DNA of 64,000 bases from Cymbomonas tetramitiformis (lineage: Eukaryota > Chlorophyta > Pyramimonadophyceae > Pyramimonadales > Pyramimonadaceae). The notes under the pieces were generated by a model, which saw only the letters and a list, made by a program, of their open reading frames with translations, ran no database searches and was not told the DNA's origin. Below, piece by piece: positions 979 through 48,959 of the stretch. Numbering within the stretch: the stretch's first letter is position 1; every line of letters begins with the position of its first letter. The stretch spans positions 17,595 to 81,594 of the forward strand of contig LGRX02024759.1 in the NCBI GenBank assembly GCA_001247695.2, read 5' to 3'. The position numbers and the translations under genes are program-made.

Positions 979-1256
979 GTGTTAACACACTATTCGATGA
1001 AAATGACATTATCATATGTCATTTTTGGATTTATATATATTTCATAAAAATCAGGGTTGAGTGATATTTATGCGCGAAATAGGGATACATAAAGGCAACA
1101 AGGTAGAAAAGTGCAGTATGCGTACAATGAAAACACCGAAATATGCATACATGTATCATTCTTTATTCAAATGTTTACGAGCAGAGTACTTTTCACCCTA
1201 TACCGTCGAGGCATGACTGATACTATCAGTCAGGGCGGTCGACAAATCCTACTATT

Positions 1257-4078
1257 TTATTCAGCATTCTCTTCGGCCTCTTCTACTTCTGATTCGTTCT
1301 CCGACGACTCAACAGCGGCTGCTTCCTTCCCCTTCGCCGTCGGTTCGCTCTTCGTTTTGGGCTTCAACTCGGCATCCTGGTCGGGCTCGGCGTGGAAATT
1401 GATCAGCCGTTGCTGCGCAGAGCTGACCATGTACTGGTCGTGGTCGAAGCCGATCGCGTTCATACCACACCTCATGGCGGCCATGGACGTCGAGCCGACG
1501 CCGCAGCAAGCGTCGAGAATCCAGTTGAGTGGATGGCCGTTCTCATCCGTCTTGCCCGGATTGTCACCGAGCATGTGGCACTGGATCAGCTCCATCAACA
1601 GTGCTAGGGGTTTCTGATGGTTATTCACGACTTTGCCGTCGCGTTTGAACATCTGGTGCACAACTGGGAAGCCGCGCAAAAGTGACGCGCGGCTGTAACG
1701 TTCACCTTCCCCCAGATCAAAGTTGAACATCCACTACGGCTTTTTAGAAGACTCCCCCTGGGCATCGCTCTTTACATGGTACCCCAGGACGCCACATTCA
1801 ACGTCATTGTAGCGTACGGACTTGTTGGGGTTCATGTGCACGTTCTGCTTGTGCCAGAAGAACCGCTCCGCGCGGCCGGAGCAGTAATTGTCAATCACCT
1901 CCAGGAAATCGTTTTGTTGGACGAAACCGCAAAAGATAGCGACTGTCCATGCCGGGGCGGTGGTCTTGGCGTTGAAAGACTCCAGGAACGGTTGCACCTC
2001 CTCCTTGGTCATCGCGTCGGGAGTCTTCTCCTTGTCAAGGGCGTAATTGCAGTCGATGATCGTCCCCGTGAAGGGCAGTCTCGGGACGTCCTTCATATCG
2101 TTCATGCTGCCCTTGATGATCTTCCAACGAGGGAACATCGGCACGTCCTGCTGATGTGTGGGCTCGTCGTCCTCCAGGCCTGCCTCTCCTGGAACCTTAG
2201 CCTCCGGCCCGTCGGTCCGCGCCTCCCGATAGAGTTTGATGTCGACTTTCACCTCGATCTGTTGCAAGCCTTGGATGTGAGCCGCGCTTGGCGCCTGCGC
2301 TTCTTTGAGATTTGCCCCCGCGTTCTCGACGTAATTGAAGATCGCTAGCGGAACTTCCCCAGACCCCCCCCGGCGCGCTCCCCCCTGAGTTGAAGGTAAG
2401 CAGCCGATCAACGACTCGATTTTCTCTTGAGAGCTTCAGTAGGGGGTGAACTCGTCCTTGAAGTCGTCCCAGGTTTGCAATCCCGCCGCGGACACCAAGT
2501 GCTTCTGCACCATGCGTTCCTTCTTGAACTGGCTTATCATCAGGCCCCCCGCTTTTACTGACAACTCCTTGTTAATAATCAGGCGCAGATACGTGTCCAC
2601 CTTGTCGAACTCCGCCTCCCCCGCCAAGCCGCCCAACTTAATCCAGAACGTCATACCCATGGATTTGGCATTGTGGAGAAACTGAGCTTCTTCCACCAAA
2701 ATGCCTGCCCCTCTAGACGAGCCCGCTCCGTGGTCCCCGCCTCCTCGTTGCACCTCGTCTTCCATCTGTAAGTAAAAAAACATTTTTAGCATATCTTAAA
2801 ATATAGAAAAGGATGCTTTGGGAGGGAGAACACTGTTTGAAGCAGAAGTAAAAAGTAATTTACCTGTCGGTTGGAGGTGCCCTTTTTGCCAGTTTTCTTG
2901 GCGGGTCCCTTAGCGGGCGAAGATGAGACCTTGCGCTTTTTGGTCTTCGAAGCCAAAGGGTTTTTCATGCCCTTCAGGTCAAACCTTCTGTAAGCCTCCA
3001 TGATGCTAACGCAGAGGTCCCACGTCTGCGGCCGGAAATTGGCAATTGTCCAGTGCATGAAGTAGTGGTTGATTTGCGTGGCGCCGAACACAGAATGCTT
3101 GGACATCGCTACTTGCTTCACATGCGTCTCCATCGACTGGTTCAAGTGAGACACGGGGTACCAATCTGTGACCCAATCGAGGTGAGCGTTGATGTCATCG
3201 TCCAGCACCTTCACCGTCACCTCTACCTGAGGGAGGGTCTCAGGGTCTCTCTCGTGCTCAGACGTCTCGTCCACATTCTCGATGTACTGGAATCCCTTGG
3301 GATATTTCTCGGGATCCGGGACTGAAAATCCATGCTCTGATTCGAACTCCGCCATTTTTTCCACCAGCCCTCCGACCTCGTAATACCCAGGTTGACAAGG
3401 GGTACCCCGTTCGGTGTCCTCGGGGACGCTGGCGATGAACTCGGAGATCAACGCTTCTCGGTAAACCTTGTACACGACCCCATGCTTTTCGAAAAGGGTC
3501 GAACGGAGCCCTTGCATGGACTGAGTGTTGTCTTTGCCGTTCTGCTTCTGGTCGATCATGTTCTGCATCTCGCCTAAGAACCGAATCATGTCAGGCGTGA
3601 GACCGATGTAGATCTTGCTCTCGAAGTACGCGAAGGCTATCTCCAACGGGATTTCCTCGTGACACTCGTCGGTGGCTTGATAACAGTGCTGGTGCCCAAA
3701 AACCTTGCCTCTGTATCCTCCCCTCAGAGCTTTTTTCAGGGAGAATTCGGCACGGGTTTTGACATCGTCGATCGCAACAAGACCCGCATTGAAAGGGGCC
3801 CACGGGTTCTCCTTCCTGCTGGACTTGATCTCGTTCACCCAGCCCCTCTCTTGATCCCGGCAGGCCTCGTACCCCGTCGCGTGGTACAGGCATTTGATGG
3901 GGAGACGAAACACACTCCCTTGCTCCGCCGCCTCGTCGAAATCCATCGGATTCGGCCACCGGTGCTCCATCTCGATTTGCATGCACAGCTCTGCTTTCTC
4001 CTCATATTCCATCTTTGCTGCATGCTCCACTTTCAGCTTAGCGTGCCACCCACATGCAGCCACCTCGGCCGCCTTCCT
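1257..4078 (-). pseudogene. Gene M, 3' part: N4/N6 methyltransferase-like, broken
   Basis: This is the 3' part of a methyltransferase-like gene. Exon 2 runs from 4078 (where E0 is inserted) to 2864; a 98-bp intron occupies 2863-2766 (CAG|GTAAAT...TTACAG); exon 3 runs 2765-1257. In exon 3 the order of motifs fits a beta-class N4/N6 DNA methyltransferase: GTIIDCNYALD in the place of motif IV, a WHKQN segment, then HQKPLALLMELI (motif X-like), then LDACCGVGSTSMAAM with IGFDHD (SAM-binding motif I). The catalytic D-P-P-Y is replaced by D-C-N-Y. Two stop codons lie in frame without any frameshift: TGA at 2438-2436 and TAG at 1736-1734. The C-terminus is acidic and ends at TGA 1259-1257. I infer a nonfunctional copy of a mobile-element methyltransferase. 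The target base and substrate are unknown. Confidence 0.65.
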
Positions 4079-4081
4079 TGC
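3233..4081. repeat. 849-bp direct repeat, copy A
   Basis: This segment of gene M exon 2 is repeated at 7258-8106 with no length difference and about eight substitutions that I can count. Copy A runs into the E0 5' LTR at 4079; the last three bases are shared by chance with the LTR start. The pair is a segmental duplication flanking E0, not an LTR pair. Confidence 0.9.
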
Positions 4082-4407: not shown

Positions 4408-4660
4408 GTGAGATTTCGAGTTGGAACTTTCGGCAACTTCTTCGAGTGTCCGCGTTGGATTTTGTTTTAGACTGGGCTTGATCACCCCTGTCAACATCTC
4501 CTTGGCCGTCGCGTGTACGACTTCGTTGATTTCGTTCGACCCCATCTTCTTCTTACTCCGCAACTGCATTTCGGTCGCCCGCCACCTTACAATTTGACAC
4601 TCGCCTTTTCCCCAACCCCCTCCTATAGGAATTTAATCTGACGACTTCATCCTCCGTTAG
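4408..4660 (+). other. E0 predicted leader intron
   Basis: Donor TTGCG|GTGAGA at 4408 and acceptor CATCCTCCGTTAG ending at 4660. After removal, the first ATG downstream is the gag start at 4683. The same arrangement is seen in E1-E3. Confidence 0.5.
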
Positions 4661-4682
4661 TACACCGGCCGTGGGCGCTAGA

Positions 4683-7061
4683 ATGCGCCTAGACTCAATT
4701 TTTGCTAGGAACGTGGGTGCTCGCTATAAGAGCACCCCGCAGTCAGCAAAAGTTGTACTCGCTGCTGCTGACAGGACACGCGGCAATGCCGTTTTACAAT
4801 CATCCTGGGACACTGACGTCGTTAAACGTGTTGCAAAGGACACCTTAGGTACTAAGGCGTCCTCATTTTCCGGAAGTGAACCTCATCGTCAACTTCTTTG
4901 GGATTCCTTGGTTACTGCCTTGGAGGCATCATTTGTCAACAAGGACAACGCCAACGAGGACATCTCTGACCTCGTGGACGTCACCGAGGAGGTTCACCCA
5001 ATCTTCAACGACATTTTACTTCGTGCGTTGGTCTCTTTGACAACGCCCCACTCTCCAGCTCGAAGGTGGGTTGACGCTTCGGCTCGGATTTCTCCGCGCG
5101 ACGGTAAGCGTGCCCTCCTTGAGATCACCAAGCGGCTGCTGCCGCCTGGGCATCGACCGCTCCGCCATCACGAGGAGCTCTTGAGCATTTCTTTTGGGTC
5201 CTCTGTTGATCCAGAGCCCTTGGTGGCCCAATTTGATGAGTGCCTAAAGGCGATTGCGGCTAGCGGAGCCGGTGCTCTGGACGACGAGGCTGCCAAGAGG
5301 CAGCTCCTAGCGGCACTGGACACCGAATTTTACAAGGAGGTGATCACCCCGCTTCGCCTTGACACTGAATTGGCGAAGGTGAGCATCGAGGAGGTTTACA
5401 CTCACATTCTGGAAGTGTGGTGGTGTGCGAACCCTAATGGCCCTCCCACCCGCCCCAAGGCAGCCGCGCCTATCCAGACGCACACGCCTCTCGGATTGGC
5501 TTACGCAGGTGACGAGCAGAGTGACATCTCGGACTTCCTCGAGGAGTTCGCTCGTATCATTGGTGAGGCCTCTACCCTACTTACCTCCCTCCGTCATGAC
5601 GAGCGCGAAGTTGCACGCGACACACCGCCGCCACGGAGTGATTTTCCCCGTAGGCATGGGGGCGGTGGTGTGAAATTTACACCGTCCAAGTGGCGCGACG
5701 AGCGGAACCGTCGGACCGACGGTAAATTTCACGGCCGTAACCGTCACGTGGGATGGAAGCATCGCTTCGCGGCCTCCCCACTCCCTAAAGGCGGGAATTG
5801 GTCTCAATCGCATCGGACGCAGGGTGCCAGGTGCATATCTTTCCATTCTGCATCGTCGGCCTTCGTTCAGGAGTGCCCCCTCTGCCCTGGGCACTTTCAT
5901 GACACGGCGCGTTGCCCAACGGTGTGTGGTTCATGTGATGTGGGACTTCGTAATGCCGCCATGGACTTGGACGAGGTCGTTTCGGACTTTCAAGCCGCTT
6001 TCGACGACGAGGACGACAAGGGATTTGCTGAGCTATGCCAGCGGCACGACCGGCCTTTGGTACGTGACGACCCGGAGCCTTTCACGTACCCGGTGGAGCA
6101 CGATGTGGGCTTGCGTGCTCACTATGCGGGCTTGGGTCGTGGTGCGTCGGACGCCGGCATGGAGGATGTTCTCTCCGACGAGGCACGGGGCGTCCTTGAG
6201 TCCCTGCGGTCTGCGGCTACGGCTGCGCAGGTAGGTGGTGCTACCGCAGCTGGTAAGCAACCACCGCTGCACATCGGCACTTTGTCTGTGCCGCAGGTGG
6301 TGTGCGATGCGCCACCACCTGCCAATCACGAGATCGACACGGGGCTTTACCCTATTTCGGCATCGGACCCCGCTTCTTTCAGGTCTCCTTTCGAGGAGCC
6401 ACTACATGTATCTTTTATGGACCGTGTAATGCCGACATGCCCTGACACCTCTCTTAAATTGTGCTCGATTGACTCGGTTCACGAGTCGGGTCACCCGGGA
6501 GAGCTTTCCGTGATCGACGATGACGACGACTCCGACGGTTATTCCTTTTCCGGAGACGAGATTCCCTCGGCCCCACCGGCTACACGATCACGTGTCGGTG
6601 TGGCAACATTGCCGAGAGTATTCTCTTTTGCATCTCTAGCCCTGCCCGCACTCATGTGTCTTGCATGTGTGTCAGCGGTTCAGGGTTCGGTGGTGCTCGA
6701 TCGAGCCCCTGGATTCACCGCAGCGGTACATCCCACTGGGGTGACTGCCGACAGTTTGTCTGCCTTGCCGTACTGTTTTGCTTTCGGCATTCCTTTTCCT
6801 TCTGTGGTTTCGGCAGGTCTGAATTCTGATTTTCAATTTTCGGAATTCCTAATTTTGCTCTACGAATCTTTTCCTGCCTCTGGCTTCTGGTCTTGGCTTC
6901 TGGATTATGGTTGTGGCTTCTGGTTCTGGACTCTGGCTTCTGGACTCTGGTTCTGGATTATGGCTTCTGGGCTCTGGTTCTGGTTGAACATCTTTGACAC
7001 TGACAACTTCTTCAACTCTGGTGAACTCTGCAACTTTGTAGACCACTTTGAAAGTGGCTGA
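4683..7061 (+). CDS. E0 gag-like protein with zinc knuckle and membrane segment
   Basis: This single intact ORF encodes about 792 aa and is the only long ORF of E0. The N-terminal half is helical and shares with E1-E3 a block reading SPARRWVDAS...DGKRALLE. A canonical CX2CX4HX4C zinc knuckle (CPLCPGHFHDTARC) lies at 5874-5914, as in retroviral-type Gag nucleocapsids. An acidic run (DDDDDSDG) precedes a hydrophobic segment around 6616-6690 (SFASLALPALMCLACVSA), so the C-terminus should cross or enter a membrane. The last about 60 residues contain a W/F/G-rich repeat (6880-6990). I see no protease, reverse transcriptase or integrase motif. The role, inferred, is particle formation for an element mobilised in trans. 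The start is the first ATG after the predicted leader intron. Confidence 0.7.
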   Translation: MRLDSIFARNVGARYKSTPQSAKVVLAAADRTRGNAVLQSSWDTDVVKRVAKDTLGTKASSFSGSEPHRQLLWDSLVTALEASFVNKDNANEDISDLVDVTEEVHPIFNDILLRALVSLTTPHSPARRWVDASARISPRDGKRALLEITKRLLPPGHRPLRHHEELLSISFGSSVDPEPLVAQFDECLKAIAASGAGALDDEAAKRQLLAALDTEFYKEVITPLRLDTELAKVSIEEVYTHILEVWWCANPNGPPTRPKAAAPIQTHTPLGLAYAGDEQSDISDFLEEFARIIGEASTLLTSLRHDEREVARDTPPPRSDFPRRHGGGGVKFTPSKWRDERNRRTDGKFHGRNRHVGWKHRFAASPLPKGGNWSQSHRTQGARCISFHSASSAFVQECPLCPGHFHDTARCPTVCGSCDVGLRNAAMDLDEVVSDFQAAFDDEDDKGFAELCQRHDRPLVRDDPEPFTYPVEHDVGLRAHYAGLGRGASDAGMEDVLSDEARGVLESLRSAATAAQVGGATAAGKQPPLHIGTLSVPQVVCDAPPPANHEIDTGLYPISASDPASFRSPFEEPLHVSFMDRVMPTCPDTSLKLCSIDSVHESGHPGELSVIDDDDDSDGYSFSGDEIPSAPPATRSRVGVATLPRVFSFASLALPALMCLACVSAVQGSVVLDRAPGFTAAVHPTGVTADSLSALPYCFAFGIPFPSVVSAGLNSDFQFSEFLILLYESFPASGFWSWLLDYGCGFWFWTLASGLWFWIMASGLWFWLNIFDTDNFFNSGELCNFVDHFESG
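6870..6995 (+). repeat. Coding minisatellite in E0 gag
   Basis: Imperfect repeats of TCTGGNTTCTGG and GGATTATGGCTTCTGG encode repeated L/F-W-x-W and ASGLWFW motifs near the C-terminus. E1-E3 lack them, so the tail was added or expanded in E0 only. Confidence 0.75.
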
Positions 7062-7257
7062 GTGTCCGCAAGATTGAGCTGTAGGAACTTAGCTTGCAAG
7101 CAGTATCCTAGCAGCAGTTTTAGAAAGGGACCGCCCTGGCTAAAGCACAGGCCTTCCTCTAGCAGTTTCCAGCTCCTAGCTGTTTGTTGTTTCGGAACTT
7201 TGGACTTTGTCTGTGAGCCGCTCTCTGCCACCTGAACAGCACTCCGTACAGCTCAGA

Positions 7258-8106
7258 GAGGGTCTCAGGGTCTCCCTCGTGCTCAGACGTCTCGTCCACA
7301 TTCTCGATGTACTGGAATCCCTTGGGATATTTCTCGGGATCCGGGACTGAAAATCCATGCTCTGATTCGAACTCCGCCATTTTTTCCACCAGCCCTCCGA
7401 CCCCGTAATATCCAGGTTGATAAGGGGTACCCCGTTCGGTGTCCTCGGGGACGCTGGCGATGAACTCGGAGATCAACGCTTCTCGGTAAACCTTGTACAC
7501 GACCCCATGCTTTTCGAAAAGGGTCGAACGGAGCCCTTGCATGAACTGAGTGTTGTCTTTGCCGTTCTGCTTCTGGTCGATCATGTTCTGCATCTCGCCT
7601 AAGAACCGAATCATGTCAGGCGTGAGACCGATGTAGATCTTGCTCTCGAAGTACGCGAAGGCTATCTCCAACGGGATTTCCTCGTGACACTCGTCGGTGG
7701 CTTGATAACAGTGCTGGTGCCCAAAAACCTTGCCTCTGTATCCTCCCCTCAGAGCTTTTTTCAGGGAGAATTCGGCACGGGTTTTGACATCGTCGATCGC
7801 AACAAGACCCGCATTGAAAGGGGCCCACGGGTTCTCCTTCCTGCTCGACTTGATCTCGTTCACCCAGCCCCTCTCTTGATCCCGGCAGGCCTCGTACCCC
7901 GTCGCGTGGTACAGGCATTTAATGGGGAGACGAAACACACTCCCTTGCTCCGCCGCCTCGTCGAAATCCATCGGATTCGGCCACCGGTGCTCCATCTCGA
8001 TTTGCTTGCACAGCTCTGCTTTCTCCTCATATTCCATCTTTGCTGCATGCTCCACTTTCAGCTTAGCGTGCCACCCACATGCAGCCACCTCGGCCGCCTT
8101 CCTTGC
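7258..8106. repeat. 849-bp direct repeat, copy B (empty E0 site)
   Basis: This is the second copy of the gene M exon 2 segment. At 8103-8110 it continues uninterrupted (CCTTGCCTCA) through the position where copy A is interrupted by E0, so it preserves the unoccupied insertion site. Confidence 0.9.
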
Positions 8107-8247
8107 CTCAGATGGGGTGGCCACTTGAGACATATCCACATTAGCGCCCGCTCCAGTATACGCTCTGGAGCCACCAGGTCCTTTAAGGGCGCGTTCGGCA
8201 GCACGCTGCACATCCGTTCTCCTGGCAGCCTGGGACAAGACGAAACT

Positions 8248-8523
8248 GTTCATTAGCTAATGAACGCCTTCCGCCCCGGTACGGGCTAAAGGCGCGCGTT
8301 TCGAGGCGGAAAGCGTTCATTAGCTAATGAACGCCTTCCGCCCCGGTGCAGGCTCAGGGCGCGCGTTTCGAGGCCGAATGCGTTCATTAGCTAATGAACG
8401 CCTTCCGCCCCGGTCCAGGCTCAGGGCGCGCGTTTCGAGGCCGAAAGCGTTCATTAGCTAATGAACGCCTTCCGCCCCGGTCCAGGCTCAGGGCGCGCGT
8501 TTCGAGGCCGAAGGCGTTCATTA
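8248..8523. repeat. Palindromic array 1, left part (67-bp units)
   Basis: There are four units of 67 bp. Each has the palindrome GTTCATTAGCTAATGAAC plus a GC-rich spacer beginning GCCTTCCGCCCCGG. The spacer ends are near-complementary (CCTTC/GAAGG). The array sits 18 bp from the intron acceptor of gene M and continues after the inserted TIR element at 9595. Confidence 0.9.
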
Positions 8524-9594
8524 TGGCTACTGCCCGACAGTCCTTGTGGGAGGACCGAAACGGCGTTGGGTCCTCCCACAAGGACCGGTGTTGCGGGAAT
8601 TTTTTTAGCCGTCCTCTTGACGGTCTTAGTGCCTACCCTTCAGTTTTTAGTACACTTAGGACCTAAACTGAGTGTCCATATGCGCCATCAACCGTATATC
8701 GTCATAAAATGACTATATCCAATGCATTTGTAGCACGTACCCTATCATTTTTGAGTTGCAACTTTTGGAGGACGTTCAAAAACATGCCATGCCATTCAAA
8801 TATTTTAATCCAATAGAATTCCAGGTCAAACAAGCCGCCCAAGTACAAAATTTTATCCTAACATCATACCCAATCATACTTGCAAGATTATACATGTTGG
8901 CGACCTCATATTGGGTGTATATACGCACTCAAATCGACCTTACAGCTGTAAAAAACATTTTTGATCCAAGATTTTCAAATGTTTTTTTCGTTACTACGGA
9001 TACTATGAATGCCAAATAGTGTTCGGATATGATAGATGTATGATGTGCCACGTCGCATACTTCATGTAAACATGTTTATCGATTTTTAGAATGCTTAAGC
9101 ATGTCAATATGTGCAGTAGTCTACTCGGAACATTGCTTTGGAATTCGGCGAGAGCAGATTTTTGGATGGCCGATTTTGATGAAATCTATTTTTTTCGTGG
9201 GTGCATGACATTGTGAGGGATATATACCGCAGTATTGTGGATTCCGAAGATGTTGTACATTGTATAGGGCACGAAAAGGTCATGTTGAAGTATTTTTTAA
9301 GTGCAGTGGGCACTAGGAAGGCCACTTAGTGAGTGTAGGTGGGTTGGGAACTTCCGGTCCTTGTGGGAGGACCGGCCCTTTTATTTAATTTCGAGCGGTT
9401 TCACCCCCACTTTTCAATAACGTAAACCACATCGCTACACCGAGTATTACACCCAACACACGTTTTTAGATAATTATTGGACACCTAAATATGACCCCAA
9501 AGCACTCATATACCAACTATATCGAAAAAACGCGGCATATATCCCAAATTGACTTCGGTCCTTGTGGGAGGACCGGACCTTCGGGTAGTAGCCA
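8524..9594. mobile_element. 1071-bp TIR element inserted in array 1
   Basis: Ends are inverted: TGGCTACTGCCCGACAGTCC on the left, and the reverse complement of the right end begins TGGCTACTACCCGAAGGTCC (3 differences in 20). The flanks are ATTA at 8520-8523 and 9595-9598, a 4-bp target duplication, and removing the element restores a normal array palindrome. Inside, GTCCTTGTGGGAGGAC occurs three times directly and once inverted (8540-8585, about 9357, about 9560). No transposase is encoded, so it is non-autonomous. The superfamily cannot be assigned. Confidence 0.8.
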
Positions 9595-9905
9595 ATTAGC
9601 TAATGAACGCCTTCCGCCCCGGTCCAGGCTCAGGGCGCGCGTTTCGAGGCCGAAGGCGTTCATTAGCTAATGAACGCCTTCCGCCCCGGTCCAGGCTCAG
9701 GGCGCGCGTTTCGAGGCCGAAAGCGTTCATTAGATAATGAACGCCTTCCGCCCCGGTCCAGGCTCAGGGCGCGCGTTTCGAGGCCGAAAGCGTTCATTAG
9801 CTATTGAACGCCTTCCGCCCCTGTCCAGGCTCAGGGCGCGCGTTTCGAGGCCGAAGGCGTTCATTAGCTAATGAACGCGCCTTCCGCCCAGGGACAGGCT
9901 CAAGG
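9595..9905. repeat. Palindromic array 1, right part
   Basis: The array continues after the TIR element with four more 67-bp units. Two palindromes carry point changes (ATTAGATAATG, AGCTATTGAAC). The last partial unit ends about 15 bp before the inferred donor GTACGT of the gene M intron. Confidence 0.85.
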
Positions 9906-10476
9906 CGCGAAAGGGACGTACCGTAGCCTGTACAACAGGTATCTCGCCACCACTGCTGAGGTCATCAATCACTGGCGCTGGCCTCTTGCTTTGCCAGAAA
10001 GGAGCTGTAATCGACGCTTTCCACGCCGTGTTTACATAGCTCGCTATATAGAATTCCTTGCTTTTTTGTTATTTTTCTGCCCTACTTTTCAAATTTTGAT
10101 AAGCCGAAAGCCGATTCGTGTGCCTAGGACAGCTCAGGTCTTCCTCAAAGTCATCGCTGTCCAGTTCGATTACAGTGTGCTTGTTGTTCCTAAGAGCGAC
10201 GAAATACAAAATGGGAGTCTGGCCTTCAATTATACTATACGCAACGCGTCTTTCCGGAAGAAGGCTACCTTCTTCTACAGTCGTTGAGATGTATTGGGGA
10301 AAACTGTAAATTATTTCGTCAGCTTGGTCGTTTGGGTCATCTGAGTGGATTATTATTCGCAAGGTGTCTGCAGGATTGTCGGTTTCTAGCGTTCTAACAA
10401 TGCTCCACTTGTGGCCAAGATACAACTGCAAAGTATGATTTTCCCTCAGTGCTTGAAATGTTTCTGCTGTCGCCAT

Positions 10477-10800
10477 ACTGAAATGAGAGAAATTGGCTGT
10501 CAACTGTGAAAGGGGTGTGTGTGAAAGAACTTTGAAAAAGTGATGTAACTTTAGCAAAATATTGTAAGTCATTTCTGGCGGCTGAAAATGACATGTCAAA
10601 TATCGATGACAATTTCTGTCAAAAATGACATTTGCTGTCGCTTCCTGATTCGGTCTGTTCAGATCAAGGATATGATTTGAAGATATCCTGGTGTCATTTG
10701 CGCTGAAATCGAGAATCGATCGATTCAGTAAGATAGAAATTCTCCGTTGACTCGCAAGTCCATATCATTTTCAGAACGTAAAAAACGGCTTCATAAGCTA
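10477..10800. promoter_or_regulatory. Divergent intergenic region between genes M and T
   Basis: About 325 bp separate the chosen start codons of genes M (minus) and T (plus). It presumably holds both promoters. A short palindrome AATCGATCGATT lies near 10713. I see no confident TATA box. The start codons are themselves uncertain. Confidence 0.4.
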
Positions 10801-13800
10801 ATGACGGCTAATTTTGACGAAAATATGTTTTCTATTCCTTTTGATGAAGGTTGCGAGATTATCTGCAAACCGTGCCCGGGAATAGTTATTGAAGATTCTA
10901 TGGAAATAGGGGCTGACTTTTTTAATCATGAGCCAATTCCAAGCACAGCCCCGAGCGCAAATACGCAATTGGTCCTTTGGAACGCGCCTTTGACGTGTAG
11001 ATCGGAAGTTAGCTCTAATTCTTCACGCGTTTCCGGGACACGCGCTTTGCGCGAAATTGACTTACAAGAGATAAAAAGCAGACTTGATACAGAATTTTCA
11101 GAGACAAGTTTGGACTTGAGGAATGAAGACCCTCTTCATTGTTTAAATGGTGAAGTAAACAAGCAGATTGTCGTGCGCAAACCGTGCGAATCCGACATAC
11201 GCAAACAGAAATATACAGGCGTAATTAGTATCAAGCAGCGACGTTTGCAGGCTGACAGTATATCAATGACAGAAACCATTAAGTGCAACTGCAAGTCGCA
11301 CTGCTGTCTATCTTTCTCATCGGCAGATATTAAGTCTCTTCGCGAAAATATTTTCAGCATGACGCAAAAAGATAGAAAGGAATACTTCATCAAAGACTTG
11401 CTAAAAAACAGCTATCGATCTGAGGACAAGTTCGACTTCAAATACTTTTTGGCCAAGAAGCAGGTATGTTTTTTTTTGAACTCGTTCATTAGCTAATGAA
11501 CGGCCTCTGGCAAAGCGCGACTCACACAGAGACACTTTGGCTACGGGAACCGTTCATTAGCTAATGAACGGCCTCTGGCCAAAGCGCGACTCACAATTAG
11601 ACACTTTGGCTGCGGGAACCGTTCATTAGCTAATGAACGGCCTCTGGCCAAAGCGCGACTCACAATTAGACACTTTGGCTACGGGAACCGTTCATTAGCT
11701 AATGAACGGCCTCTGGCCAAAGCGCGACTCACAATTAGACACTTTGGCTACGGGAACCGTTCATTAGCTAATGAACGGCCTCTGGCCAAAGCGCGACTCA
11801 CAATTAGACACTTTGGCTACGGGAACCGTTCATTAGCTAATGAACGGCCTCTGGCCAAAGCGCGACTCACACAGAGACACTTTGGCTACGGGAACCGTTC
11901 ATTAGCTAATGAACGGCCTCTGGCCAAAGCGCGACTCACACAGAGACACTTTGGCTACGGGAACCGTTCATTAGCTAATGAACGGCCTCTGGCCAAAGCG
12001 CGACTCACACAGAGACACTTTGGCTACGGGAACCGTTCATTAGCTAATGAACGGCCTCTGGCCAAAGCGCGACTCACACAGAGACACTTTGGCTACGGGA
12101 ACCGTTCATTAGCTAATGAACGGCCTCTGGCCAAAGCGCGACTCACACAGAGACACTTTGGCTACGGGAACCGTTCATTAGCTAATGAACGGCCTCTGGT
12201 CAAAGCGAAATTTTTCTTGGACCTTGTGATAGATTGTGTGATCTTGTTCATCACAGGAATGTGGAAAATTGTATCATAAATTTCTAAATAAATTTCATAA
12301 AGTACACATTCACGACGTTGGTCGAGTTGGTACGGCGCTAGGCTATGAACCTCGCACTCGTGGGTTCGATTCCCACTAAGGGTGTAGGTTGCGCAGATCT
12401 AAGGCGTGACGGAGAGTGCTGACGAGCACGCGACGGCCGTCCCGCCTGCAGACGTGCAGTGTTGGGGGTGTCTCCCAAGCGTCTTAGATCCAGCCAACCT
12501 ATAAAAACCCTTATGCGTTTCCTTGGATAATTTGTTAATAATTTTTGAGTGACGGTGTCTTTTGTTTTGTAACAGGTGTGCTTTAAGTTCTACTATACGG
12601 CTTACGGCATCAGCTACGGGTATCTTCACGACTGTCGGACACGCGTGCTCGAGGGCCGACACACGTTTGTTCATGGCTTGACGTACGAGGAGGACAATCA
12701 CAAGATTTCCCTGAAACGCGAGTCGGTCGTCGCATGGATCAAGAAATACGCCGACGAATACGGACAACCCCAACCTGACAAAGCCGAGATTCATCTTTCG
12801 GATGGTTTGACCATCGAAGAGCTGTGGGACGAGTACATCGAGGGCCTGCGTGAGAATGGGGAGAGCAAAAAAATCTCTTTCAGTTACTTCTACAAAGTAT
12901 TTGACGAAGATTGCAGCTCTTGGCTCAAGATTCCATCGGTGAACCGATTTTCTCAGTGCGATGTTTGCGCGTCCTTCAAGTTATTGAAGGAAGGCTTAAC
13001 CAAATCTCAAAAAGGTGAATATTCTTGAATAGCTTTGTGATGTGTTTATATGCTTATGCAATTTGTTCACTGACCCGAATTTGTGTACCTTGCGCAGCGC
13101 AATACAACGGGCCTCTCAACAAACATCTTCGGCAATCGCACGAGCGGAGCGCCAGAAGTTCTACAAACATGGTCGTAAAGCGAATATGACCAAGAGCATT
13201 GCCATGAACAAAACTTGGCATGAGTATGCCTCGGTGATCATCGATGGCATGACGCAGTGGACCACCCGACTGCCACACTTTCGACGTATCCCTAAACATC
13301 TGGACTCTAAGGACTTCCTTGACGTGCACAACATGGGGAGCATGATCGAGAACGTGGGCCGCTTCATGGATTTCAACTACGCCAACTTCAAGGACGATGC
13401 GAACTTCCTTGTCAACGTTTTGCACCGGGATATCCTCCGCATTCAAGAGCATCGACGCAACGGGGACGGGGAAAATTCATACCCGATGCCGGAAGTATTG
13501 TATGTACAGCTTGACAATGTGAGCGCCAACAAGAGCAAGTTGATGTTGGCATACGCAGCTTGGCTAGTGCACACGGACGTCTTTCGCAAGGTGAAACTCA
13601 ACTTTATGTTGGTGGGACATACGCACGAGAACATTGACCAGATGTTTTCACGCTTCTCCGTGCGTCTACGACGCAAGCAAGCTTGGACGCTCGACGAGAT
13701 GATAGAGGTCGCACAAGAATGCTTTACGGATGGTGTAATATGCGAGCACACCGAGAAGATCTTCGACTTCAGCTCTTGGTTTGATGGTCACGTCTTCGAT

Positions 13801-13904
13801 TGCCACAATATTTTGGCACAGCAGGCTTTCAAGTTCAAGAAGAACGAGCACGGCGAAGTGGGCATGCAGTACAAACAGTATTCCATTTCACCCAAATGGT
13901 TAGG
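10801..13904 (+). CDS. Gene T: DUF7869/DDE transposase-like protein, three exons
   Basis: Exon 1 ends at 11463 (AAGCAG|GTATGT), exon 2 is 12576-13014 and exon 3 is 13098-13904. Exons 1 and 2 join in phase (FLAKKQ|VCFKFYYTAYG). Exon 1 contains a Cys/His cluster (CNCKSHCCLSF) and exon 2 a SQCDVCASFKLL motif. Exon 3 carries the family core: IIDGMTQW, then VLYVQLDNVSANKSK, then LVGHTHENIDQMFSRFS. This D...DN...H-T-H-E pattern is typical of DUF7869 proteins and resembles a DDE/RNase H-like transposase core. I infer it is the transposase of the element that also carries gene M. The exon 3 frame needs a one-base shift near 13145. The protein may continue, because TTAGG|GTAAGA at 13904 is a donor-like site. 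The frame is open upstream to 10747, so 10801 is only the first in-frame ATG. Confidence 0.6.
11484..12208. repeat. Palindromic array 2 (69-bp units) in gene T intron
   Basis: Eleven copies of GTTCATTAGCTAATGAAC are spaced 69 bp apart (the first unit is 68). The spacer starts GGCCTCTGGCCAAAG and has inner inverted ends CCAAAG/CTTTGG. Two spacer variants differ at CACAGAGAC versus AATTAGAC. The array starts 20 bp after the intron donor. The palindrome equals that of array 1, while the spacer is unrelated. Confidence 0.95.
12311..12510 (+). repeat. tRNA-derived SINE-like sequence
   Basis: An A box TGGTCGAGTTGG (12319-12330) and a B box GGTTCGATTCC (12363-12373) are 32 bp apart, as in tRNA genes. 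The T arm GTGGG-TTCGATT-CCCAC folds perfectly. No acceptor stem pairs around it, and the sequence runs on into an unrelated GC-rich body ending near TATAAAAACC. It lies in the large intron of gene T. It is better read as a SINE head than as a working tRNA gene. Confidence 0.6.
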
Positions 13905-15014
13905 GTAAGAAAGTCTTAAATATGGGGTCAGCCAGCGAATTTCGTCAAGTTGTGACCCCCCCGCCAGCGCCAGCGACCTATGATATTGCTAAGAATAAGA
14001 AATCCCGATTTTGTAGCTCAGCCAGCCAATTTCTTATTCTGATTACTTAAGGAGGAGGCAGCCAGGTATCTTGAAATTGACACTCGGCGACGGCCACAGT
14101 AGTAAAATTTTAGTATGGATCCTGAAAGCCGTGAGCAGATAGGAGAGCTGAAGAAGGAAAATTCAACAGTCTGTATGATATTTTTATTGAGATAAATTGT
14201 GTATAAGCATCAAAATCCTTTGATAAATCAAGTAAACCCACCAAATAATCCAGCCAAAATTTCTTAACTAGTTTTCACTATGATTCAAGCCGGCCAGCCC
14301 CTTGATTTCTTATTTTGGCTGTAACAATAAATCGGTCAAAATACAATACGTTGAATCTTTTGCAAATTCGGGATTGATTTTTTTTGCTATAATGGATATT
14401 TAGCTATCAAATAACAATCCCATGCAGGGATTTTACGTGTAACACCCTGTAACACCCTAATAATCGAATGTGTGTGTCAGGGGTGTAACGTACCCTCTGA
14501 AAATCACTTAACATTCACTTAGGTATTAAATGCAGTTTTGCTTAAAAACCTTTGCAAAAATTTTATACTGCTTATTTTTTACCTATTTTAGGGTTACTGA
14601 TATAATGTAACACCCTAATCATACTATTGGGTATTTGGGCCACTGTAACGTGATATGCCCTAAAATGCCACTGTAATTTCGATAAAACTTCGTGTTTGGC
14701 GTTAATATATCATGCTGTTTTCATCACAGACATGATTATATGATGGGCAACAACCCAAGAACTGTGACAGATGCTTCCTGAAAGGATGCATGCTGATTAT
14801 GAGGTATTGGCCATTGACAACTGCCACAATATCACACACTTCCTTGAGGGGGGAAGAAGGTGGATATATATATATACTTACCTCTTTATTATGTACTAAT
14901 GTACTATATGTATGTAAACATACCGATATACCATATATAACATAGGTATATATATATCAACACACACACTCAGTTAGCTGAAGGTATTTTTGTGTTGTGT
15001 TTTGTTTTTTTAAG
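13905..15014. other. AT-rich non-coding stretch
   Basis: No gene is seen. It holds scattered short motifs: CAGCCAGC/CAGCCAAA between 13930 and 14300, TGTAACACCC repeats between 14440 and 14620, and a TATATA run near 14865-14955. It separates gene T from a Ty3-like relic. Confidence 0.5.
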
Positions 15015-16885
15015 ATGGCAGAAGATACAGATATTCCAGCCATCAATGCAGATCCATCAACATGGTTCTTCGACATATATATTAGGCTCATATGATTCAT
15101 TCAGTCGATTCAAGATTCCGAAGTGGCTCGTTGGTTATGATAACACCCAGACCAGATTCGACCAGGTAGGGTACTTCGACGGTATCAGTCGCATGAAGCC
15201 TGATATGAGCAGATATCGGGATCCTGAAAACGAGCCTCAGGAACCAGATGAGGAATATTCTGCAGACAATCCTCCAATGGTCTTCACAGATCCAGATGCA
15301 GATCCAATTCCAGCACCAGCACCACCGAGTTTGGTCCCCAAGGTGAAAATGACACCACCTAGGGAGTTCAAATCAGGAATGGACGCAGAGGTTTGGTTGG
15401 AAACCGTGGATAGATACTTCCAATTCACGTATCCAGGAGTTCCAGACAAGGACTTGATTACAGTATTCCTGACCCTCATACAGAATAACGACCGACACTA
15501 TTTCCAGGTTGTGGCAAGTCAACCAGATGCCACATATGAAAAGATCAGAGGAATTTTTCTCAGACAGTTTGGTAACCCCCACAAAAGATCAGTAGCCAAG
15601 AAACATCTAATGGCGTTGTATCAAGGGAGCCAGACTTTCTCAGATTATCTACGCACATTCACGTCACTGGCTGCATTGGCAGCAGTTGATCTGGATGATG
15701 TGTTGATAAAGGACAGATTTGTCAACAGCATAGATCCAGAACTCCGCAGACAGTTCCACTTAAGATTCCTGACAGAGACAGAAAGGAATAATCTGTCGTG
15801 GTCACAAACCACACAGATACTGCTCGACCTGAATTATGTCGTTCATTCGAAGCAGTCAGAGACCCTGCACTATAGGGGGCAGAAGGAACAGTCAACGGGA
15901 GGTCCAGTCAGAAAGGAAGAGAACAGAGGACGTGGCCAAAAGCCATATGACAGATCCAACAGAAATCGGAGTTGGAATCAGAATGGTAGCCAAAATTTCA
16001 ACCAGTTTCGGACCAAAGGAAAAGGTGGAAAGGGCAAAGGAAAAGGAAAAGGAAAAGGAAAAGGAAAAGGAAAAGGAGCATCACCAAGTCCTCCTCAGTC
16101 TTGCCAGCGTTGTGGTCGTATAGGTCACATCGCAAAGGATTGTTTCTCCACCAGAACCCCAGATGGAAAGGAGATCAAGGGTAAGCCACCAGCTCAAAAT
16201 CCCTTTCAGCAGAATCGGAGACAGCAGCAGAATCAAGGTGCTAAAGATGGGTCTGGCAAACTCATCAACACGATCAACACCTTGGTCAAGGAACTGAAGA
16301 ATCAGCAGAGCATCAATGCAGCGGTTGCAACTCCAGCTCCATCTCCAGCTCCAGCTTCAGCTCCAGCTCCTCAGGGAAACTCTCAGGGTACTGCACAGGT
16401 ACCATTGTTCAGAGCACCCCGAGGATAGATCAGCCTGCAGATGCCACTGAAGCAAGTGGCCGGGTTGAGAGTATCTCAGAAGAAGTCCTTTCCAGTCTGA
16501 CATTGCAGTTTCAGCAGATGGACACTCCCTCAGAGCACATCGCACAGATACAGTCTCAAACAGCACAGCTGAAATCACAGAAGAAGCTGTTGTTGTACAA
16601 AGGGAAAGTATATGGACAGAGTACTCACATTTTGGTAGATCCAGGAGCCACATCGTCTTTTATCGACAGACAGTTTGCTGATCAACTTGGTATAGCACCC
16701 ACAGATTCTTCATCATTTTCAGTGGGATTGGCTGGAGGAAGCCAACTGCCATGCACATCCTATCTTCCCAAGGCTACATTTTCTCTGGGCAAGTATATAT
16801 AAAGATACAGAAGATTTTTACATCATTGACATGAAACCATTCACTGTCATTCTGGGTCAAGATTGGTTGGAGAGACCGATGACAT
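15015..16885 (+). pseudogene. Ty3-like gag-protease relic, truncated
   Basis: A retrotransposon Gag reads WLETVDRYFQFTYPG, then FLRQFGNP and a CX2CX4HX4C zinc knuckle (CQRCGRIGHIAKDC) near 16102-16143. A (GKGKGK)n basic run precedes the knuckle. Gag stops at TAG 16426-16428. A retropepsin follows in the -1 frame, with ILVDPGATSSFID near 16630 and, after another shift at a TATATA run (about 16797), VILGQDWLERP. A likely original start (MAEDTDIPAINADPS, 15015) is also out of frame with the rest. The sequence ends in simple repeats at 16885 before any reverse transcriptase, and no LTR is visible. It is a decayed fragment. Confidence 0.75.
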
Positions 16886-44087: not shown

Positions 44088-45151
44088 AAGAACTGTGCGC
44101 TTAGCTCAATGCGTTTTCCTATTTGGACAGCGGCATCACACGTCGGAAACGATAAATCTGGCCAAGCAGCTCGTTATACTTATGGTGTTACATTGATGGT
44201 TTCAGCTTATCATTCAGGGATCACAGTTTGACAATCTTGCAAAACTCAGAAATGATGTCGCATATGGATATGTTCCCTCGCCTGCCGTCCGTCGTGAAAT
44301 AGTTATGCAGAAGGGGGATAAAATAGTAGAGAAAGTTTGATAAAAAACATACGACATTTGACATCTGGGTGGAGCGACATTTGGTCAGGTATTGCCGTAT
44401 TTTTAAAAATATACCACATCTGGGATGTCAATCATGCATGCATCTTTCATCACCATGGTTTCGCGAAGGGAAGGGTTATACGCGCTGGAACTGTCTCAGC
44501 CCCGAAAAAATTCTGAACCAGAGTGACGGTCATATCGATATCGTCTCGCATCGTCTCGCGTGTCATCGTGAATTTAATTTCCAGGATTATTAAAACAAAT
44601 CATCTATTTATCTTCCATCGATATCGCGGATACGATTGCCGTTGGCGTTGACTCGCTCAAGGATAAAGAGCTGCGCACCAACATTTACTGCTCATAATTT
44701 TCTCAACGGTCCTTCGCGCTTCGCCTCATGGGCGGAACGATGTCGTGGCTGCTGTGTTATGCGCAGGGATTTCGGAAGTGTTTGACTGCTTTTATTTTTC
44801 AATTTGTTTATGCACATGTGCCGACTCACGATACTCGGTTTGTGCAACTTGTGTCGCAGGTTTTCCGATGGTGAGGAGGGGCGCGCTTTCTTGAGGTGTG
44901 GAAGTCTAGGGCAACCTAGCTTGGGATCACACCCAACCACATCGGACCCACCTTGTTCTCACGTTTTATTCAACTCACTTTGAATCTGCATACAAAGTTT
45001 GAGCAGCATCGGGTTGGGATAAGCTACAGACTGATTTTGTTTTTGGGTTTATGGCGTCTTCCTCGCGACCTCTTGGGGTGTGGAAGTCAAGGTTGGGCAT
45101 GCCAACCTTGCTTGGGTTCGAACCCAACCACATCAAAGGCATCTCATTTGC

Positions 45152-45404
45152 TGCTGAAATCTGTATAGGCAGCCCTGACTGGGAGTCCCGGTGCAGGCCC
45201 CTATGACAGACTCCTAGGACCAACACTGGACTGCTGACTGATCTATAGGTTCGTGCTGTGACACACGCTGTGTCACAGGTAGGCTAGACTCCGAAACCGT
45301 CCGAGACCGTTCCGGGTATATCTAGCTTAGGGTTTATTTATCTTGAGAGTTTATCCACACAGTTCGGGAGTTTCTGATATCTAGTGAACTAGGATATTCC
45401 AGTA
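45152..45404 (+). repeat. E3 5' LTR (253 bp)
   Basis: It is matched by the 3' LTR apart from one extra G in CCCGGTGCAGG. Confidence 0.92.
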
Positions 45405-45445
45405 GGTCGTGGCCCCATCCACGCTTTTATTCCACTTGCTGATTT

Positions 45446-45461
45446 GGCCATGATTGGCTAA
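45446..45461 (+). promoter_or_regulatory. E3 leader hairpin with Met-Ile-Gly-stop mini-ORF
   Basis: GGCCATGATTGGCTAA. Same stem and reading frame as E0, starting about 46 bp after the LTR. Confidence 0.65.
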
Positions 45462-45534
45462 ACGGCCGCTTGGAGAGGTGGTGCGCGCATGCGCGTTTGG
45501 GTGCGACTAGGAATTATGGTATGAATTGTTTGCG

Positions 45535-45800
45535 GTAAGCAACTGTGAGTGGCGGCCATGGGGACCGCGCCTCGTTACGGACTAGTCTTAGCAAAGTTCG
45601 GATCCAGTTTTGCACCAGCACTGGCCCTGCTGGTTACTGTTTTCTGGGCTGGTGTTCGCGACACCTTCGACTTCGACGACATCTTCGAGTGCCCCTCGCC
45701 GCTCCACTCTCTTAGCTCCTCTCCGCTGCTGACCATTACCATTTTTCCGCTACCACACCCAACCGCGCGACTGCGTACCACCTCCCCTCTGGCTTTTCAG
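45535..45800 (+). other. E3 predicted leader intron
   Basis: Donor TTTGCG|GTAAGC and acceptor TCTGGCTTTTCAG. The first ATG after the acceptor is 45804. Confidence 0.6.
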
Positions 45801-45803
45801 AGT

Positions 45804-48155
45804 ATGGGTATGTTGACCCGAGCGAAGAAGTCCCTGGACAGGGACAGTGACATCGACGCCTCGCTGAGGCTATTAGACGGAGTTCGGAACAGTCCGACGG
45901 TGCGTACGCCAACTGTTCCGAACCCCGCTCCGAATTCAAACGAAGATGCAGACGTGGCGACCAGGAAGTACTTGCAGGAGCAGAGCAAGCTGGTTGACGA
46001 CGTCTACAAAACGCGGCTGCACCGCCAATGGGCCAAGGGTGTCCGAGAGGATGTCCTTGGGGACAAGAAGCACCACTTCCGCGGTACGGACGACGCTGGC
46101 CTCCTCTCCGAGCTGGTGGTGCAGCTGCGTACAGAGTTTCATTCCGCTGGGCTGGAGTTGGCATCCTTTGACCTCGACGACCCTCTGGCTTGTGTGGTGA
46201 CCAAGGTCAACGGCTTGCTCTTCGACGTTTTGGCTCTGGTTATCGAGAAGCACAGCAACGCCTACGTCTGGTTGACTGGCACCGACGCCTCGTCTGACCG
46301 TGATGGACGGCGAGCCCCGGTGGACATCATCAAGGGCTGTGTACCTGTGGCGCTACGTGAGTCGCACCAGGAGGAGCACGCCGCGTTGCGTTATCCCGCA
46401 GACACTGACCCGCAGCCCATCTTGGCTCGGGAACAGCGTCTGGTGCGGGATAACAAAGCTACGGACTGGACACCCACCGAGGAGACCAGGAAGCTCTCCA
46501 TGTACAACCGGCTGGACCCGGTGTTTTACACCGCGGTCAAGGTGCGGTACCCTCTCGCGGCCGATCTCGCGCACGTATCCTTGGCGTCTCTCCGCTCCCT
46601 TGTGGTGGAGATATATCAGGCTTGGGCGCAGACGGGGGCGGCGAAGACAGTCTCGGGCAAGAGCGGCATCTCCGCGCAGCTCTCCAGCACCGAGTACGGC
46701 GCCCTCCTCGACAAGATCAACGAGCTCCAGGATTTGCTGCGGCAACAGCGCGGGACGGATGCGCCACCGGCGCAGCAGCAGCGGCAGCAGCCGCAGCGGC
46801 GGCAGCGGCAGCAGCAGCAGCGCGGTACGCAGCGGGGGTTCCGTGTCGGCACGCACCCGTTGCCTCCGGTCGGTTTTGACCGTGACGATCGGAAGGCGAA
46901 GCCTTTTTGCGGGAAATGCAAGAAGGCGGGGGAAGGTGAGCAGTACCATTTCTACCGCGACTGTCCGTTGGGCGGGCGTCAGCATCCCCCGCACTCGGCC
47001 GCGGCATTCTGCATTCCCATCGACGAGGAGGACGCGGAGGGGGTGCGTGCATTGGCCATGTGTGCCCTGTTCCAGCAGGCGGCGGACGATGGGGCCGAGG
47101 CTTTTGCCACTGCGGCATCTACGTACGGGCCGCCTGCGGTGCTCTGTGCGGGTGCGGTGGGCGGGATCGACGTGTCGGCCTACGGCTTCACGGTGGAGCC
47201 GCAGCAGCCTGCTGACGAGCCCGCAGGTGACGACATTCATCAGCGGCTGGACGATCTCGCCGCGGAGGTCCATGCCGCGGCGAACTGCAAGGTGCACTAC
47301 ACTCACGCATCCTTCCCACCACGGGCGGTTCTCGAGCCGCATGCATCGGCTCTGGTGTGCGGCCCCGCGGCAGCGGGGAACATGCCGGAGGAGCAGGTTC
47401 CGGCAGGTGGTGCGGCGGCATTGGCATCCGCCGTGCCGGCCCCTGCTATACCTGTCTCGCAGGAGGAGGATGTGGAGCCCGTGCCGCTTCAATCGGCGCG
47501 GGTGACTGCCACGACGGACGGTGAGTTCCCTGGGTTCGTTCAGACTGTCAACCACGCCGCCATCGCGCCGGTTGACCTCACCGGCTACGACACCGACGAC
47601 TACGAGGACTTTGCCGACGGCAGCTTCCGGCTGAAGCCGCGGGGTTCGCCTCCGTCGGCCAATCATGCTTCCGGGCCGCCCGTGGACGAGCAGAGGACCT
47701 ACGGTTGTGGGAAGCCGCCCTGGGGCTTTCCTGCCACGGTTGGACCATGGGGAATTCCTTTCCTCCTTTCCCTCGTTCTTTGCATCTCGATCATGGGGGT
47801 GGCAGCTGTGCCCGACGCTCAGTCGGCTGCGGGATTGCCTTCGCCTTGTGGTGATCTCGATTGGGAAACTCCGTCAATTTTCTCCACGAATGAATTTGTT
47901 GAATCTGTGATCCCGGCTCAGGGTTTCTTTGTGACTGACGATGTGCCACCGCTTGAGCCGCCTGAGCCCCCTGGCCTCTTTCAGGACCTTGCTCAGGCAG
48001 ATTTGGGCTTTGACATGGCTCACTACTACGGTATGGCTTTACATGAGGCCGGTCCTCTTGATGTGGAGCACTACTACAGTGCTGGCTTTTTCACATCTTA
48101 CTACGGCATGGACTTCCGTGAGGCCACCACTGGCTACTTTGGTGCTGTCGATTGA
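45804..48155 (+). CDS. E3 gag-like protein with zinc cluster and membrane segment
   Basis: This intact ORF encodes about 783 aa from ATG 45804. The same frame is open to ATG 45558 upstream, but that part lies in the predicted leader intron. The helical N-terminal region has a diverged VWLTGTDASSDRDGRRA block. A poly-Q/R stretch (46770-46830) comes before the zinc cluster CGKCKKAGEGEQYHFYRDC (CX2CX9HX4C; 46908-46964). An acidic YDTDDYEDFADG patch, YGCG, and a hydrophobic segment (GIPFLLSLVLCISIMGVAA, about 47753-47810) follow. The tail carries repeated HYYGM and YYGMDF motifs. No pol domain is present. It has the same inferred role as the E0 and E1 proteins. Confidence 0.7.
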   Translation: MGMLTRAKKSLDRDSDIDASLRLLDGVRNSPTVRTPTVPNPAPNSNEDADVATRKYLQEQSKLVDDVYKTRLHRQWAKGVREDVLGDKKHHFRGTDDAGLLSELVVQLRTEFHSAGLELASFDLDDPLACVVTKVNGLLFDVLALVIEKHSNAYVWLTGTDASSDRDGRRAPVDIIKGCVPVALRESHQEEHAALRYPADTDPQPILAREQRLVRDNKATDWTPTEETRKLSMYNRLDPVFYTAVKVRYPLAADLAHVSLASLRSLVVEIYQAWAQTGAAKTVSGKSGISAQLSSTEYGALLDKINELQDLLRQQRGTDAPPAQQQRQQPQRRQRQQQQRGTQRGFRVGTHPLPPVGFDRDDRKAKPFCGKCKKAGEGEQYHFYRDCPLGGRQHPPHSAAAFCIPIDEEDAEGVRALAMCALFQQAADDGAEAFATAASTYGPPAVLCAGAVGGIDVSAYGFTVEPQQPADEPAGDDIHQRLDDLAAEVHAAANCKVHYTHASFPPRAVLEPHASALVCGPAAAGNMPEEQVPAGGAAALASAVPAPAIPVSQEEDVEPVPLQSARVTATTDGEFPGFVQTVNHAAIAPVDLTGYDTDDYEDFADGSFRLKPRGSPPSANHASGPPVDEQRTYGCGKPPWGFPATVGPWGIPFLLSLVLCISIMGVAAVPDAQSAAGLPSPCGDLDWETPSIFSTNEFVESVIPAQGFFVTDDVPPLEPPEPPGLFQDLAQADLGFDMAHYYGMALHEAGPLDVEHYYSAGFFTSYYGMDFREATTGYFGAVD

Positions 48156-48474
48156 CTTCTTGTTCACTCTGGATGCACACCAACATGGTGGTGTGCGGAA
48201 CTCCAGTGACTTCAACGACTTTTATGGTTTATGCTTTTGCTTTTGACATCTACAAGTTACATTCTGGCTTGCTAGCTCGGTGCCTTTCAGTTGTTTAGCG
48301 GGTGCACAATGCCCGTAGGTTTCTGCACCTGTGCTAGCTAGGAGGTTTCCAATTTGTGTTTCAGAATTGCACAGTTGGATTAGCAGTTAGGTCTGTCAAC
48401 CTGGCTCCTGCCCTAACTTATCTTACATTATCTGACTCTCCTAGACAGTCACCACCCACAGTGCTGGGGTGGTG

Positions 48475-48726: not shown

Positions 48727-48959
48727 TTTGCATATATTCATGCACTTGTCTTCGATATTCATGCAAAGTTTTAGGATCTTTGAGTTAGGATAAGCCTTAG
48801 GCAGATTTATCTTTGTGGGTTATGGCGCATTGTTTCCTTCTTGAGGTCGACACAAAGCATGAAAAGCTTTGCAGCCGAAGGCTTTTCGTGCGTACTAGCG
48901 CACCAAACTTGGCACTAATATTGCTGACAATAATATTAGTGCACCCTCTTAAGCGCAAA

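Follow-up and report, generated by a model that had tools for sequence, protein, structure and literature searches.

The closest described counterparts of the system treated here are the VANDAL transposons of Arabidopsis, in which the VANC motif stands in tandem repeats within introns of the elements' genes and changes between families (PMC5735166; this and the other papers are cited from the parts available). The system itself, a divergent gene pair called M and T with palindrome arrays in its introns, lies in a 64,000-nucleotide stretch of DNA of the green alga Cymbomonas tetramitiformis (GenBank assembly GCA_001247695.2, contig LGRX02024759.1, positions 17,595 to 81,594 of the forward strand), which as a whole is called the window. 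DNA transposons with genes for DNA-modifying enzymes have also been described, namely TET/JBP genes in KDZ, hAT, IS3EU and other elements (PMC12730594), and the P-type transposon Galileo has multiple THAP binding sites in its long terminal inverted repeats (TIRs) (PMC3688188).

M and T are the divergent gene pair of one TIR DNA transposon of C. tetramitiformis and not two host genes. The arrays in their first introns are, on balance, probably clustered cis-elements, that is, tandem binding sites for a protein encoded by the element. Binding sites are the best-supported reading because in a second family, with a T protein of 57% identity, the first introns of both genes likewise hold arrays, built on a related palindrome. 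The reading is further based on the arms being kept while spacers and centres drift, on the dyad, on the many copies and on the placement in introns of both genes.

The M/T element and its palindrome arrays

Copies of 8,644 bp on contig C23 and of 8,989 bp on contig C62 aligned with the window copy at about 98%, in three pieces that span both copies, some 0.27 kb of C23 excepted. The inverted repeat AACACACTATTCGATGAAAATGA was found at the start and the end of both, with AACACACTATTCG... on both termini, and a copy of the second family on contig C25363 carries AACACGCTATTCG on both termini. The length of the target-site duplication (TSD) was 4 bp in all three copies of which both ends were seen: ACAG and GGTG flank the C23 and C62 copies, and TTAT, read by eye, flanks the C25363 copy. 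In C62, M and T are both open, with three exons each on opposite strands, and the arrays coincide with the first introns of the two genes as predicted from reading frames, protein P0001 and splice signals. Among published proteins, T (CYMTET_38921) and M (CYMTET_38922) are numbered consecutively, and the contigs that carry them are equally long; the closest named homologues are CYMTET proteins (91% and 96% for T, 91% for M). The original prediction had described M and T as divergent neighbour genes; the divergence was confirmed, whereas the two belong to a single transposon.

The window copy begins at 984 and its likeness to C62 ends at 13902. It is damaged, with in-frame stops in M, a frameshift in T and two insertions. 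Identity to C62 is uneven along M (79% in exon 1, 90% in exon 2, 95% in exon 3; for comparison, 99% in T exon 3), a pattern suggestive of exchange by recombination among families. The features of this copy are:

984 to 1006, forward strand: left TIR AACACACTATTCGATGAAAATGA, recognized from the repeat at both termini of C23 and C62; the right end of the window copy was not found
1257 to 4081, reverse strand: 3' part of the M gene, with the methyltransferase-like region and part of exon 2; has in-frame stops and aligns to C23 and C62
4082 to 7251, no strand assigned: 3.17-kb insertion in M, between two copies of an 855-bp direct repeat of M sequence
7252 to 8229, reverse strand: M exon 2, the 3' part of which is the second copy of the 855-bp repeat
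8230 to 9921, reverse strand: M intron 1, holding array 1, with the 5' site GTACGT at 9921 and the 3' site CAG at 8230
8248 to 8523, forward strand: array 1, block 1, 67-bp units with 4 exact palindromes
8524 to 9594, no strand assigned: insertion that interrupts array 1; its ends are TGGCTACT.../...AGTAGCCA, and ATTA stands on each side (read by eye)
9591 to 9909, forward strand: array 1, block 2, 67-bp units with 5 palindromes (2 exact, 3 with 1-3 mismatches)
9922 to 10476, reverse strand: M exon 1, beginning with the ATG at 10476; open in C62 and interrupted by an in-frame stop in the window copy
10789 to 10806, forward strand: single degenerate palindrome (14/18), covering the T start codon (ATG at 10801)
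10801 to 11463, forward strand: T exon 1
11464 to 12575, forward strand: T intron 1, GTATGT...AACAG, holding array 2; protein P0001 is continuous across it
11484 to 12207, forward strand: array 2, 69-bp units with 11 exact palindromes
12576 to 13014, forward strand: T exon 2
13098 to 13902, forward strand: T exon 3 with the DUF7869 core (PF25273, E 1.3e-48); frameshift near its start; similarity to other copies ends at 13902

The 18-bp palindrome GTTCATTAGCTAATGAAC has 20 sites in the window at up to 3 mismatches, against a mean of 0.02 in 100 shuffles. Nine of these make up array 1 (8248-8466 and 9591-9876; 6 exact, 3 with 1-3 mismatches) and 11 array 2 (11484-12190, every one exact), with periods of 67 and 69 bp, respectively, according to Tandem Repeats Finder (TRF). 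Array 1 is a single array interrupted by an insertion of 1.07 kb, the edge of which is straddled by the first palindrome of block 2; the C23 and C62 arrays are free of this element. The likeness between the spacers of arrays 1 and 2 was equalled by 47 of 300 shuffles, and the spacers are thus unrelated. The proposal of one palindrome shared by two intronic arrays with unrelated spacers was therefore borne out. The same holds for the location of the arrays within about 20 bp of splice sites: 20 bp separate the T 5' splice site (11464) from the first palindrome, 18 bp the M 3' splice site (8230) from the last one, and 12 bp the M 5' splice site (GTACGT, 9921) from the TRF-defined array end. The splice sites of M intron 1 are phase-consistent and were also found in C62. 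The single palindrome over the T start codon is present in all three copies examined (window, C23 and C62, which are not independent), and one as good or better occurred in 6 of 200 Markov-shuffled sequences.

Some further sequences were noted within this copy. The 855-bp repeat of M exon 2 sequence (3227-4081 and 7252-8106) is 98.8% identical between its copies, and the 3.17-kb insertion holds a long gag-like open frame (4629-7061) without Pfam match. The ends of the 1.07-kb element were also given as TGGCTACTGCCCGA.../...TCGGGTAGTAGCCA, and several copies of a short motif, GTCCTTGTGGGAGGACC, were seen in it by eye. A tRNA-like stretch with a box B-like GGTTCGATTCC, perhaps a short interspersed nuclear element, was noted by eye in T intron 1 at about 12315-12390; an ARAGORN scan of the window called no tRNA, here or elsewhere.

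A search of the genome (851.7 Mb, 25,745 contigs) yielded 10,793 exact sites of GTTCATTAGCTAATGAAC and none of the reversed control. As there are 14-18 sites per copy, this would by rough arithmetic correspond to several hundred copies of the element. Parts of four contigs were fetched, and all 53 sites in them (14 in C23, 3 in C39, 18 in C62 and 18 in C70) fall in M/T copies; these contigs are the first by number and not a random sample, and the 53 sites are a small part of the total, the rest of which was only counted. Arrays scattered over the genome without a link to M or T, the observation that would have spoken against the original prediction, were not encountered among them. The next base was not G on 1,072 of 21,586 palindrome sides, G being the first base of both known spacers; several of these sides, which were listed in part, stand in 67-bp rows. 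Tandem insertion of two miniature inverted-repeat transposable elements, as had also been put forward, found no support: such elements require a TSD for each unit and dispersal as single units, whereas the array units adjoin directly without target duplications between them and all 53 sites examined are in M/T copies.

Variation within this first family was assessed in 39 array 1 units from six copies and 32 array 2 units from four copies. Departures from the consensus were found at 25 of 702 palindrome positions and 160 of 1911 spacer positions in array 1, and at 8 of 576 and 54 of 1632 in array 2. The consensus palindromes were identical in all 21 array pairs, while spacers differed by as many as 8 positions in array 1 and 3 in array 2. 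The number of exact palindromes differs between close copies (6+8 in C23, 7+11 in C62), and units diverge less within than between copies (0.092 vs 0.118 in array 1; 0.037 vs 0.048 in array 2). Such differences in copy number and partial homogenization would also be expected of neutral, satellite-like arrays, in which a hairpin-forming unit has been amplified by slippage in each intron and has no function. The shared palindrome would then have nucleated the amplification, by a cruciform or replication slippage, or have been copied from intron to intron by gene conversion. This account is a possible but rather doubtful one, given that one word is kept beside two different spacers in each element and given the second family described below.

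A second family with a related palindrome

The comparison that decided between the readings involved two families and one subfamily. A diverged T family, represented by protein P0007, has identities to P0001 of 57% (exon 3), 52% (exon 2) and 46% (37 residues of exon 1). A genome search with P0007 gave 74 scored copies from 3,733 first-look candidates, all at 97-100%. The copy of this family on C25363 has TIRs similar to those of the first family, and no first-family palindrome was found in it within 3 mismatches. Instead, the stretch from the first M exon to the methylase exon holds an array of 144-bp units with 4 palindromes, CTCATTAGGCTAATGAG, and T intron 1 holds one of 93-bp units with 8 palindromes, CTCATTAGGTTAATGAG. 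This intron splits the T protein at an equivalent point in both families (CDRP|VCSAF vs GKKQ|VCFKF), and its 5' splice site in the second family overlaps the start of the array. The M exons start alike (MATLEQFRAL vs MATLETFQAL); the M splice sites of the C25363 copy were identified by eye. On C293, a subfamily copy that is 99.5% identical in T exon 3 has units of 151 bp and 93 bp, with the centres ACC and AGC and, once, GCT.

The second-family palindrome can be written as CTCATTA-NNN-TAATGAG, in units of 144-151 bp and 93 bp. Its arms, CTCATTA and TAATGAG, are exact in all 28 palindromes of the four arrays on C25363 and C293; the palindrome counts (4, 8, 6 and 10) equal the TRF copy numbers, so that every unit is accounted for. 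Between the arms stand the centres GGC, GGT, ACC and AGC/GCT, of which three are distinct, as ACC is GGT and GCT is AGC on the other strand. When the spacers of the two copies are compared, 108 of 134 columns agree in one pair of arrays and 63 of 76 in the other. Within one copy, the M and T spacers differ in length and in most of their sequence and have CAAAACTG in common beside the left arm, a likeness equalled by 2 of 300 shuffles in C25363 and 20 of 300 in C293. The arms TCATTA...TAATGA are common to both families. Genome-wide, CTCATTAGGYTAATGAG has 2,810 sites (1,417 + 1,393), and its control none. The recurrence of a related word in so distant a family suggests a docking site for a protein of the element itself. 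It also argues against neutral arrays, as does the exactness of the arms beside diverged centres and spacers.

Several observations weigh against binding sites. The arm-conservation signal within the first family is weaker: randomly drawn column sets matched the conservation of the palindrome in 1003 of 20,000 draws for array 1 and 4872 of 20,000 for array 2, a result that suits neutral arrays, as do the few bases that the second-family spacers have in common beside the arm. A third copy of the second family, on C871, shares just its right 2.2 kb with C25363 (99.8%) and was counted as a miss, as no second-family palindrome was found in the 10 kb fetched around it. This copy (L029, C871:38600-48599) is a partial or chimeric one. 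The remainder of it is a different sequence with a 180-bp tandem array without palindrome.

A function at the level of RNA was also considered, in which rows of intronic hairpins would join splice sites, feed small-RNA pathways or bind a protein. One unit of each first-family array, when folded, paired end to end and far better than shuffles (z -8.5 for array 1, -5.4 for array 2), the arrays are intronic and adjoin splice sites, and the second-family T-intron unit pairs at its two ends (13 pairs). For their length, however, the second-family units fold less stably (-24.6 kcal/mol for 145 nt and -16.8 for 91 nt, without shuffle control), and the dyad at the unit junction is symmetric at the level of DNA, a symmetry that a stem across the unit does not need. 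A role of this kind is unlikely, and of the original proposal of functional binding sites or hairpins tied to the gene pair, the second-family arrays support the binding sites in particular, with the hairpins as a rival.

The arrays had also been viewed as possible intron-generating units. Introners are repeats with inverted ends beside splice sites, and their copies occupy introns of many unrelated genes. In an introner-like origin, arrays or single units would have made the introns on insertion into intronless genes. The proximity to splice sites, and the overlap of the second-family T 5' splice site with the array, would agree with this. Moreover, of 21 homologues that cover the T junction, 19 could be aligned across it with no more than 2 additional residues, so that the intron may be lineage-specific, although the 21 include annotated proteins for which splicing is possible, and the metagenome calls were compared at the protein level. 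Introners have been described in Amoebophrya, for example (PMC7789003). The M/T units, in contrast to introners, were seen solely in two introns of one transposon type, in tandem and without TSDs between units, and none of the 53 sites examined, of 10,793, was in an intron of an unrelated gene or anywhere outside M/T copies. The proposal thus found no support, and such an origin is very improbable.

Proteins T and M

The sole Pfam match of the T exon 3 piece is PF25273 (DUF7869). T is predicted to have an RNase H-like fold with a conserved Asp triad (D230/D320/D361) and is, according to this model, an RNase H-like protein with the acidic triad of a TIR DNA transposon. The fold was obtained from 73 sequences (P0011 and 72 of 81 homologue proteins, after removal of nine models that were short, redundant or odd) with a predicted local distance difference test score (pLDDT) of 86; a fold from 11 sequences was poor (pLDDT 48). 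A sequence search of the PDB with T returned merely four rows, with E about 0.4, and one with M exon 3 no match at E 0.1. The Mos1/SETMAR transposase domain (PDB 3f2k, 3hot) likewise has an RNase H-like fold with an Asp triad; it differs in its 8% identity, in its TSD, which is not the 4-bp one found here but TA, and in lacking the large extra domains of T. The predicted common fold does not establish family membership.

DNA amino-methyltransferases (N6/N4) have a SAM-binding (S-adenosylmethionine) motif I and a motif IV of the form (D/N/S)PP(Y/F/W). M of the window copy matches PF01555 with E 2e-5 and 25.1 bits, below the cut-off of 26.7, and 15 of 17 M homologues do so at E 0.01 (best 7.1e-8). 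Motif IV of M reads D-x-x-Y, without PP. The M alignment comprises 17 of 21 homologue proteins. By its sequence, M resembles the DNA amino-methyltransferases, with an altered catalytic motif. Protein P0029 (CYMTET_20758) starts as a second-family T (96% over 96 residues) and continues as M, and appears to be a chimera, either of the gene model or of the element itself.

If the arrays are binding sites, dyad-symmetric sites with the arms TCATTA...TAATGA and a centre of 2-3 bp would be bound by an element-encoded protein. By analogy to anti-silencing in the VANDAL/VANC system, where a protein from the element attaches to its motif arrays and lowers the methylation of the element, the likelier binder would be the methyltransferase-like M protein or a partner of M; the T transposase would be the alternative. 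Many sites in a transcribed body could recruit the protein to every copy of the family, where it would set the modification, silencing or expression of the copies. The units would amplify and contract by unequal exchange, so that spacers drift and homogenize while selection preserves the arms. A more specific proposal, put forward tentatively and with less confidence than binding as such, is that of a eukaryotic transposon superfamily with a DUF7869 transposase and its own DNA amino-methyltransferase, which would dock on the palindromes of both introns and mark or de-silence every copy, enzyme and word co-evolving such that each family has a private word.

No relative of T exon 3, of the T alignment or of the M alignment was found in viral contigs, from which the records of the window genome itself were possibly excluded. 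A palindrome match in the viral collection (L001) was rejected, as it consists of one site only and the AT-rich contig that holds it has no matching array.

Elsewhere in the window, a retrotransposon gag with zinc knuckles (PF03732, PF00098) lies at 14941-16428, about 1 kb beyond the point at which T is cut off. Near-identical 188-bp tandem arrays, with units starting TTTGGGTTTGGG, are present at 49008-49580 and 53180-53752, both within a cluster of repeated and inverted segments (44493-54709).

Relation to described transposons

MuDR/VANDAL elements make TSDs of 9 bp, and Tc1/mariner elements duplicate TA. The TSD of 4 bp sets the M/T element apart from both groups, and the sole Pfam match of T exon 3 likewise speaks against membership in MuDR/VANDAL. 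Zisupton-type KDZ elements, with TSDs of 8 bp (PMC12730594), were discarded for the same reason. In VANDALs, introns of the element's own genes hold clusters of short, tandemly repeated motifs, and these motifs are family-specific, dynamic in copy number and diverging between related elements (PMC5735166). Family-specific motif arrays of this kind were found here in intron 1 of both genes in two families. The differences are that VANDALs are of MuDR type, while the M/T element has DUF7869, a 4-bp TSD and a palindromic motif, and that the companion gene resembles an amino-methyltransferase, with binding proposed here by analogy to VANC.

The transposons with TET/JBP genes similarly combine a transposase and a base-modifying enzyme gene in one element; their enzymes are demethylase-like, whereas M is methylase-like (PMC12730594). 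The term 'tandem repeat' is absent from the main text of that paper. Galileo has multiple sites for its own transposase, as the M/T element may have for its own protein, but in the terminal inverted repeats, while the putative M/T sites are in introns (PMC3688188). No description of the M/T element was found in the titles and abstract openings searched, and a literature search on DUF7869 returned no papers. The main text of the Cymbomonas genome paper, as available, has no word beginning with 'methyl' or 'tandem' (PMC10675990).

In conclusion, if the arrays are docking sites, they would represent an independent invention of the VANDAL-type intronic motif array, by a green-algal element of another transposase lineage, and coupled here to a methylase-like gene. 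Transposons would then have repeatedly solved the problem of self-recognition across copies by using introns as amplified binding platforms. The system comprises two proteins and two words, and its sites in this one genome number in the thousands.

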